This document shows, in pieces, positions 60,984 to 64,000 of a stretch of 64,000 bases of DNA; within the stretch, counting starts at the first letter, position 1; each line of letters starts with the position of its first letter. This stretch comes from Deltaproteobacteria bacterium (GTDB lineage Bacteria; Myxococcota_A; Polyangia; Polyangiales; Polyangiaceae). The notes below the pieces were generated by a model. That model worked only from the letters and a program-made list of their open reading frames with translations. It did not search any database and was not told the DNA's origin. Location: assembly GCA_016218915.1 (NCBI GenBank), contig JACRCQ010000022.1, forward strand, positions 62,001-126,000, written 5' to 3'. The position numbers and the translations under genes were made by a program.

Positions 60984-61913
60984 GTGTCGGAAGCGGGTTC
61001 CAACGAATCGAAGAACGGCAGCTGGGTGCTGCTCGTGGCAGCGCTCGCGGTGGGTATTGGCAGCCACCAGCTCATTCCGGCTCTGCGAGACGGATCGACG
61101 TGGGCGTTGATCACGACGACGGTCGGGGTCTATGGGCTGGGCAATGCGGTATGGGCGCTGATCCGGCAGCGCAAGGCGCCCTCGGCGATATGGCCTGCGT
61201 GGCCGGCAGCGCTGATGGCGGTAGCGACCCTGGCGGCCGGGGCGGCGGGCGGTGCCTCGCTGCGCCAGAAGACCGACGAAGCGAACCTGTTCGTGGACAA
61301 GGCATTTTCCGGGCAGGAGAGAGACACGGAGCATGCGGCGATCCAGACCGCGTATTTCCGCTATGTCGGGTACGGGACCGGGCGCACCTGCGCTGCGGTG
61401 GGCCTCGGGTTGGGCGCGGTGTCGCTCGCGCTTGCGCTGGCGTCGCTGGAGCGGGCACGAAGAGCGCAACGCAAGCGGAGCACCGAGAAAGAGACGGGGC
61501 CCAGCGCTGCGACCCTGTGGATCGGGGTGTGCGGCGTGATGGGTGCAGCGGCGTTGGCTGCGAACGTGGCGGCGATACGGCGTCCGGTGCCCGCGGCCGA
61601 GGATCCCGAGATCGCAGAGGCTGCGCTGATCACGCGGAGGTTTGACTCGGGCGACGTAGCCGGGGCGTGCCGGGTGCTGGAGCCTGCGCTGGAGAGCTCG
61701 AAGGCAGCCGCAGAGGCGCTGGGGCGTCGGTTGCCAGACCTCGCTCGGGGAGCGAAGCAGTGCGTGGACTTCGAGCTGGGCAAGGCGAAGAAGCTGGGTC
61801 CCGGGGGATGCGAGTCGGTGGTGGGGCTGATCGGGCCGATGCGCTTCGTTCAGGTGGCTGGAGCGCAGGAGGCGGTAGCGGCGGCATGTCCGGTGGCTGA
61901 GGAGCCGCGATAG
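60984..61913 (+). CDS. Membrane protein, four predicted helices
   Basis: 309 residues starting at GTG 60984. Hydrophobic segments at about 13-30, 43-60, 70-90 and near 130-155 and 175-200 suggest four or five transmembrane helices, followed by a soluble C-terminal region from about 215 with repeated Ala/Glu/Leu helices. No family motif is seen. The stop codon lies inside the hairpin listed next. Function unknown. Confidence 0.62.
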   Translation: MSEAGSNESKNGSWVLLVAALAVGIGSHQLIPALRDGSTWALITTTVGVYGLGNAVWALIRQRKAPSAIWPAWPAALMAVATLAAGAAGGASLRQKTDEANLFVDKAFSGQERDTEHAAIQTAYFRYVGYGTGRTCAAVGLGLGAVSLALALASLERARRAQRKRSTEKETGPSAATLWIGVCGVMGAAALAANVAAIRRPVPAAEDPEIAEAALITRRFDSGDVAGACRVLEPALESSKAAAEALGRRLPDLARGAKQCVDFELGKAKKLGPGGCESVVGLIGPMRFVQVAGAQEAVAAACPVAEEPR

Positions 61914-62278: not shown

Positions 62279-62305
62279 GTGCGGCTGCGAGGAGGGACTC
62301 GAACC

Positions 62306-62500
62306 ATGACAAGCCGTCGAGATCGGAGCTTCAAGCTCAAGACCGCGCGCGTTTCATCGCCCCTTCGGGCGAGCGGCCTGGGGTCGCATACCGGCAAGGC
62401 CGCGAAGTGGTACGTACGTGCGCTGGCCGATGACCTGTTCCGGCTCAGGGCACGGTTCGATCTGATGGCGACAGGCGGTGTGATCCCGCGGACGACGTAG
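62306..62500 (+). CDS. Small basic protein, 64 aa
   Basis: The ATG at 62306 is preceded by GGAGGG at 9 bases. The predicted protein is MTSRRDRSFKLKTARVSSPL followed by a helix with WYVRALADDLFRLRAR. It is basic, has codon use like its neighbours and lies 27 bp after the RHH gene, so it may be cotranscribed as the partner of a regulator or toxin-antitoxin pair. Not recognised; it could also be a chance ORF. Confidence 0.4.
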   Translation: MTSRRDRSFKLKTARVSSPLRASGLGSHTGKAAKWYVRALADDLFRLRARFDLMATGGVIPRTT

Positions 62501-62514
62501 CGCTTCCTATCGGG

Positions 62515-62587
62515 TGGGCCAACCGGGACTCGAACCCGGGACCGACGGATTAAAAGTCCGCAGCTCTACCAACTGAGCTATTGGCCC
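62515..62587 (-). tRNA. tRNA-Lys (TTT anticodon)
   Basis: 73 nt on the minus strand. The acceptor stem is GGGCCAA/TTGGCCC, the D-arm AGCTCAGTTGGTAGAGC, the anticodon loop contains CTTTTAA with anticodon TTT, and the T-arm is CCGGGTTCGAGTCCCGG. CCA is not encoded. All stems pair well. The adjacent accessory genes agree with tRNA genes being insertion sites. Confidence 0.95.
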
Positions 62588-62840: not shown

Positions 62841-63362
62841 ATGACACCAGACCTGAAGCAATCCATCGCTGCCCGCGGGAGGAGCCTCCAGAAGAGGCTC
62901 CACGAACGGGTGGCGGAGCCGATCGCCGCTGCCATGGAGGCGAAGAGACTCTTCGAGGACGCTGCGGACGAATCGCACACGCGTTGGCTAACGCTGGAGC
63001 TCACGGGATACGGCGACGTGGTAGCCGCCACGCCGTTGCACCAGGTCCTGCGGGTGGCGCCTGGCGATCGGTTGGCTGTGCACGTTACGGCCTACCGAAC
63101 GCAGCGCGGATGCGACGCTTCGTCTGGGCGACCTCAGGGCGAGTTCCGCCACTTTTTCGTGGAGTCATTGAGCGAGTTGGTGGCCGCGCGCGATCGTCTG
63201 GCCAAGTCGGCGAGCGGGGTTTCCGTCCTGCTCACGTTCCGGCCCCAGTTGGGAGACACGAGTTATCCGACGACCGGTGAGTTCAGCCGAGACGTATTTG
63301 ACAGAATTCTGGCTGGTTTCCTGGCAGCGCTCCACCTTCAGTTGGGAAACCTTCCCCAGTGA
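62841..63362 (+). CDS. AbiTii-like abortive-infection protein
   Basis: 173 residues. The AbiTii-like segment is AKRLFEDAADESHTRWLTLE followed by LTGYGD, resembling the 'L.kal.lA..l.d..l..Wl.lEL.GY' pattern of AbiTii proteins. It starts without an obvious Shine-Dalgarno. The family is linked to phage defence by abortive infection. Its stop overlaps the next gene (GTGA), suggesting a two-gene module. Low-level confidence in the family name. Confidence 0.55.
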   Translation: MTPDLKQSIAARGRSLQKRLHERVAEPIAAAMEAKRLFEDAADESHTRWLTLELTGYGDVVAATPLHQVLRVAPGDRLAVHVTAYRTQRGCDASSGRPQGEFRHFFVESLSELVAARDRLAKSASGVSVLLTFRPQLGDTSYPTTGEFSRDVFDRILAGFLAALHLQLGNLPQ

Positions 63363-64000
63363 TCAATCTCGATGACACGCCGAACCTGTGCGCGGGCGTG
63401 CCTGCAGAGTCGGCAGCTGCGCTGTGCTTCCGGGCCATCGTCGCGCTCCAGCGGCGGCACGAGCCCGAGGTAACCCTTCGCGCGACGGTGGAAGACAACC
63501 CGATCGACGAATCGCTGATGTGGAAGCCGAGGCCCACGGACATAGCGAAGACCGAGGACTTCAACCGCGCCACTGAGGAAGGAGCCGAAGCGCTGGCGCT
63601 GGCGCTTGCGGCGCGACACCCAACATGGTGCGCTGTGCGACGTCTTCAATCGCGAATGGCCGAGGGTGCCGACTGGCTGATGCGCGACCGATCGAGGCAC
63701 TTCGTGGTAACGAGCGCGATCCTCCACGCAGAGCGTCTGGCGCGGGACTCGTTCGAGGCACTTTCGGCGTTTCGTAAGGTGTCCAAGCTTGAGGAGTCGA
63801 TCGCCCGGCTGGCTCCGCCTGGCATCCAGCTTCTGGAGCACTTCCGTCGACACGTCGTCCATCTGATAGCGGCACGCTCGCGGCGGCGTAGGGGACCGCA
63901 CTCCCCGGGTGATCCGCTGCGTGTGCGCATCACAGACGAGCGGGTCCTCACGCACCGTCATGACTGCCGCAGCGGTGACTCCAGCGCCAGCGCCACCCCC
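63359..64000 (+). CDS. Unknown gene coupled to AbiTii-like gene, 5' part
   Basis: An open frame of 214 codons from GTG 63359 (VINLDDTPNLCAGVPAESAA) to the right window edge without a stop. The start overlaps the previous stop by GTGA, which argues for translational coupling and the same operon. It is rich in Arg, Ala and Glu, with helices such as ARHPTWCAVRRLQSRMAEG. No domain is recognised. It would be the partner of the AbiTii-like protein. Confidence 0.6.
   Translation, partial: MINLDDTPNLCAGVPAESAAALCFRAIVALQRRHEPEVTLRATVEDNPIDESLMWKPRPTDIAKTEDFNRATEEGAEALALALAARHPTWCAVRRLQSRMAEGADWLMRDRSRHFVVTSAILHAERLARDSFEALSAFRKVSKLEESIARLAPPGIQLLEHFRRHVVHLIAARSRRRRGPHSPGDPLRVRITDERVLTHRHDCRSGDSSASATP

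Follow-up and report, generated by a model that had tools for sequence, protein, structure and literature searches.

An AbiTii-like gene and a fused reading frame

The window, i.e. the whole stretch of 64,000 nucleotides that was analysed, lies within a 369-kb contig of a Deltaproteobacteria bacterium, away from the contig ends. At its right-hand edge, a 173-aa plus-strand frame (62841-63362) ends in a TGA that overlaps the GTG start of the next frame, and the GTGA overlap described in the earlier note is confirmed at 63359-63362. This next frame is open through the window end. Reading the contig rightwards, an extension which that note had proposed, showed that it stops after 236 aa, at window-equivalent position 64069; its last 112 nt are antisense to a 237-aa minus-strand ORF, the two being arranged tail to tail. 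We refer to the first gene as A, and to the two genes whose remnants make up the second frame as B and C. The features of the locus are:

62513-62587, minus strand: tRNA-Lys (TTT), upstream of A
62841-63362, plus strand: gene A, an intact AbiTii-like frame of 173 aa, with WLxLExxGY and the conserved E53
63359-63362, plus strand: GTGA overlap of the A stop and the next start, kept in relatives
63359-63694, plus strand: remnant of gene B (tblastn), residues 1-112, ending just past the conserved ADWL
63707-63820, plus strand: remnant of gene C, residues ~10-51, in frame with the B stump, by its match to C of relatives
63821-64000 and on to window-equivalent 64069, plus strand: last part of the fused frame, to which neither B nor C shows detectable similarity
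63958-64000, minus strand: 3’ end of the 237-aa ORF, a near-orphan in the family (window-equivalent 63958-64671; L002:3958-4671)

The second frame had been described as one unknown gene of at least 214 codons. This is refuted: the frame consists of stumps of B and C plus a non-homologous tail, and we rejected the idea of a single new gene because each half matches a different gene in relatives. In same-family genomes, the matches fall into two parts, in different frames, at the same places as the A matches. The closest relative is the locus L034, the intact B of which matches the window at 63359-63694 by tblastn with 52% identity over 112 residues (E 5e-35), after which the match ends. Residues 10-45 of its C match at 63707-63814 with 58% identity over 36 residues (E 2e-8); the C of L037 extends this match to approximately residue 51 at 63820, and the C proteins of L036, L037 and L059 also support the C remnant. 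The B match ends at residue 112 and the C match starts 12 nt further on, the same two points being approximately 196 nt apart in L034. A deletion of approximately 184 nt relative to L034 puts the two reading frames into one.

With the residues past ~112 deleted, the window B is without E117, G120, K133 and Q136, i.e. its catalytic core is absent. C is cut to approximately 42 residues followed by approximately 80 residues without homology; the last two thirds of C are absent from the 1400 bases searched, and no other copy was found in the same genome. Codon-position GC keeps a gene-like pattern across both fused parts, B and C, and the deletion may therefore be recent or the fusion expressed. 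Since the partner of A is made of the stumps of two genes, the two frames in the window do not form a working two-protein system, and the ancestor of the unit had three genes. Thus, the working two-protein anti-phage system that had been suggested for this site is not supported.

The flanks of the locus are housekeeping genes, namely the electron-transfer flavoprotein genes etfA/etfB and thiS-thiH-thiG-holB-PSP1, and the neighbours scanned with PADLOC gave no match beyond a weak AbiTii. A defence island, of which the earlier note saw a fragment here, is therefore not shown at the window locus. Concerning the other neighbours it named, the tRNA-Lys is indeed present, and the “RHH operon” contains an RHH match, albeit a weak one (18.6 bits against a Pfam cut-off of 20.5). 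Two ORFs flank this weak RHH gene, at 60984-61913 (309 aa, membrane-bound by eye) and 62279-62500; neither is of a recognised family. The same-genus genome G017 shares the thi-holB-PSP1 order, with 65-77% protein identity, and similarity ends right after thiS. The 237-aa ORF beside thiS, which has no Pfam or PADLOC match, is absent from the syntenic site in G017 and from nearly all same-family genomes. The stretch from tRNA-Lys to thiS thus represents variable sequence beside a conserved block. No second copy of the tRNA-Lys 3’ end was found within the window and there is, therefore, no sign of an integrated element.

The A-B-C operon in related genomes

Same-family relatives contain three overlapping genes encoding proteins of ~160-184 aa (A), 165-170 aa (B) and 121-129 aa (C). 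A and B are found together, overlapping each other, at two loci of G028 and in G010, G016, G006, L059 and the window, and the co-occurrence search put forward earlier thus shows that A and its partner recur together in related genomes. Because the A-B start/stop overlap recurs in related loci, the arrangement is not due to chance; the overlap suggests coupled translation. The proposal that A and the next gene are probably expressed together is supported by this overlap and by the conserved association.

Full-length A-B-C is found in five of the eight A loci (L055, L056, L058, L059 and L061). Besides the window, B has been lost and A kept in two of the seven others: in G006 (L057), B is cut at approximately residue 116, and in G045 (L060), A and a full C are present with only approximately 20 aa of B between them. 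A is retained in all eight loci, a small number, and since these loci were found through A, its retention is partly a sampling effect. On the minus strand of L041 (G027 C43), at ~2266-2652, there is a C gene unaccompanied by B; it is 56% identical to the C of L055 and lies downstream of small ORFs, one of which is HEPN-like by eye and has no Pfam match.

Relationships of the A, B and C proteins

AbiTii is the second protein of the lactococcal AbiT system; it is also found fused to HEPN domains and contains a highly conserved glutamate (PMC3710099). Single-sequence scans of A against Pfam, PADLOC and NCBIfam gave nothing over cut-off: the window A scores 12.8 bits against Pfam AbiTii (PF18864; curated cut-off 27.6), the best relative 16.5 bits, and the PADLOC AbiTii model is matched with an E of 0.019. 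When profiles were compared using hhalign, A aligned to AbiTii over 131 columns (probability 86.2%, E 4.9e-6) with the W-x-x-x-E-x-x-G-Y motifs superimposed, while B, used as a control, gave a probability of 0.2%. The AbiTii reference set comprised nine genuine domains, from one Myxococcota genome (found with PF18864) and from plasmids. W49-L-x-x-E53-x-x-G56-Y57 is invariant in nine of nine A proteins, E53 aligning to E42 of the AbiTii set. Like AbiTii, A has a helical start and an alpha+beta body; unlike AbiTii, it is not fused to HEPN, it adjoins a PD-(D/E)xK-like protein, and it is without the P-x-Y-R that follows GY in all nine aligned AbiTii proteins. Thus, the similarity reported in the earlier note held up in profile-profile comparison and, judged by its sequence, A is a remote relative of AbiTii; scoring below the Pfam cut-off and being without P-x-Y-R, it is called here AbiTii-like and not a member.

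The AlphaFold model of A has a pLDDT of 92.7. Foldseek and VIA found no meaningful structural relative, PDB sequence profiles yielded nothing convincing, and plasmids gave only chance-level partial matches (E 0.3). The A family is rare, with seven loci in 84,980 species genomes scanned using one short peptide pattern, by which remote members are missed; these loci are labelled Polyangiaceae or other deltaproteobacterial assemblies. One further remote A relative was found in a same-class genome.

Searches of Pfam, NCBIfam, PADLOC and the PDB gave no sequence match to B. The AlphaFold model of an intact B (L058; pLDDT 92.2, pTM 0.90) gave no Foldseek hit with an E below 0.001, while the top rows in VIA are nearly all PD-(D/E)xK-fold proteins. 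The best is Hjc (1gef) at a moderate Z of 6.6 (rmsd 3.3, 94 aligned), alkaline exonuclease (3syy) and SPARDA (9qcc) have Z of 6.2 and 6.1, respectively, and a homing endonuclease and tRNA-splicing endonucleases are also among these rows. B shares with this superfamily (Hjc resolvase, lambda-type exonuclease, the SPARDA nuclease subunit, tRNA-splicing endonuclease) a core of helix, strands, helix and strand, with the core acidic residues D...E present as D103 and E117 at beta strands; K133/Q136 lie on the helix that comes next. It differs from the superfamily by an extra N-terminal part of approximately 65 residues and by ExS, ExG or ExH in place of the canonical ExK. All 16 intact B loci, across different partners, have D103, E117, G120 and K133 without exception. 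This conservation, with an invariant lysine on the next helix, makes catalysis plausible, and the model points to B being a putative nuclease of PD-(D/E)xK-like fold; the replacement of ExK by ExS or ExG is also compatible with a protein that may be catalytically dead or non-standard.

C has no match over cut-off in Pfam, NCBIfam or PADLOC; one C protein gave weak TPR matches. The C proteins found with A and those found with other partners match each other by profile (probability 94.9%).

The B-C pair with other partners and the origin of the locus

In other Myxococcota, B-C pairs are immediately followed by, or fused to, genes for proteins that match the PADLOC candidate PDC-M28 (KGGVGR-type ATPases) or SNF2 helicases of Hma/DISARM type. 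A KGGVGR or KGGTGR ATPase is located directly downstream of B-C in L040:8669-10761, L074:2968-4855, L079 (reverse strand) and L081:3126-6540, and KGGVGR ATPases beside B-C score 136.7 and 139.9 bits (cut-off 90). The L081 ATPase is one protein matching both PDC-M28B and PDC-M28C of PADLOC. We found no literature naming PDC-M28, and a literature search for KGGVGR returned nothing relevant. In L075, L077:4089-6486 and L105:2982-5283, the downstream gene encodes a KaiC-like (KaiC/RecA-like) ATPase, none of which matches a PADLOC model above chance. In L076:1732-5929, B is followed by a C-like N-terminus fused to an SNF2 helicase matching the PADLOC HmaA (E 4.7e-155) and DrmD models, and in L080, L104 and L106, C is extended by a further domain. 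In contrast to PDC-M28 and Hma/DISARM, B and C themselves have no PADLOC match, and the window subfamily has the AbiTii-like gene instead.

A conjugative plasmid of Anabaena cylindrica also carries B-C, both genes being annotated as hypothetical; searches of viral contigs (A and B profiles) and of phages and plasmids (single B proteins) gave no match except one Anabaena plasmid. The A locus of G006 (L057:82-6040, C10) is flanked by pglX and pglZ in a BREX locus and is the only A-containing relative in a clear defence locus. Between pglX and pglZ are the AbiTii-like gene, the truncated B, which runs directly into a RhuM-like fragment (PADLOC PDC-S05), and small genes that are DUF433/PIN-like by eye.

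The case for A-B-C acting in defence is built mainly on these associations with ATPases, a helicase, a plasmid and a BREX locus; judged from genomic association, such a role is likely. B-C appears to be an undescribed nuclease-like gene pair that recurs with different partners. Together, we conclude that the window locus is probably a decayed copy of the three-gene A-B-C operon, likely what remains of a system against phages or plasmids in which B would cut nucleic acid. In such a system, intact B, a predicted PD-(D/E)xK-like nuclease, would act on nucleic acid, whether foreign or of the host; C, which is encoded beside it and is short, helical and TPR-like, would scaffold or regulate B; and A would be the AbiTii-like sensing or controlling partner, the place of which would be taken in other B-C loci by the KGGVGR ATPase, the KaiC-like ATPase or the SNF2-type helicase. 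In the window, the deletion has taken the invariant core of B, and A is intact. With B dead, the system is probably inactive in this genome; the stump frame and A may survive neutrally or in the role of a residual regulator.

Three other explanations of the locus were weighed. That the fusion is a sequencing or assembly artefact, the organism having an intact operon, would be in line with its being known from one draft assembly (81 contigs, 92.6% complete). However, a single base error cannot produce an internal change of ~184 nt together with the loss of the last two thirds of C, the site is in a 369-kb contig away from its ends, and B has been independently lost in two other genomes; we regard an artefact as very improbable. 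These same two genomes (G045 and G006), where A is kept, fit the idea that the fused frame encodes a functional protein under selection, in which the N-terminal domain of B and a helix of C form with A a two-gene regulator or immunity unit after loss of the nuclease; A is indeed intact and the joined frame is open with gene-like codon-position GC. Yet the B stump is without most of its fold core, C is reduced to ~42 residues before ~80 non-homologous residues that overlap the antisense ORF by 112 nt, and no second copy with the same fusion was found, all of which makes a working fusion distinctly unlikely.

A-B-C might also be an addiction module of toxin-antitoxin type, B being the toxin and A the antitoxin, rather than a phage-sensing defence. 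The genes are small and overlapping, and B is lost with A kept in three of the eight loci, as expected if uncontrolled B is costly. But there are three genes and not two, and elsewhere the B-C partner is a large ATPase or helicase, which better fits an activated defence machine than an antitoxin. We consider an addiction module unlikely, although a little less so than a working fusion. Compared with these, the decayed three-gene operon remains our preferred explanation.

A broader proposal, which we put forward tentatively and at somewhat less than even chances, is that B-C would be a mobile effector core of two genes, so far undescribed, in which a variant PD-(D/E)xK nuclease with the catalytic lysine moved to the next helix is paired with a TPR-like protein; this core would be plugged into different sensors (AbiTii-like, KGGVGR ATPase, KaiC-like ATPase, SNF2 helicase) to form a defence family across Myxococcota and Cyanobacteria. 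The window would then be a copy from which the effector has been cut out and the AbiTii-like partner kept. The locus also carries a caution, in that two dead gene ends, once joined by a deletion, can read as one long frame without a known function. If our explanation is right, it adds to defence biology a nuclease-like family that is missing from the catalogues searched and is repeatedly found beside defence ATPases of several known kinds, and AbiTii-like proteins would gain a partner with a testable activity.
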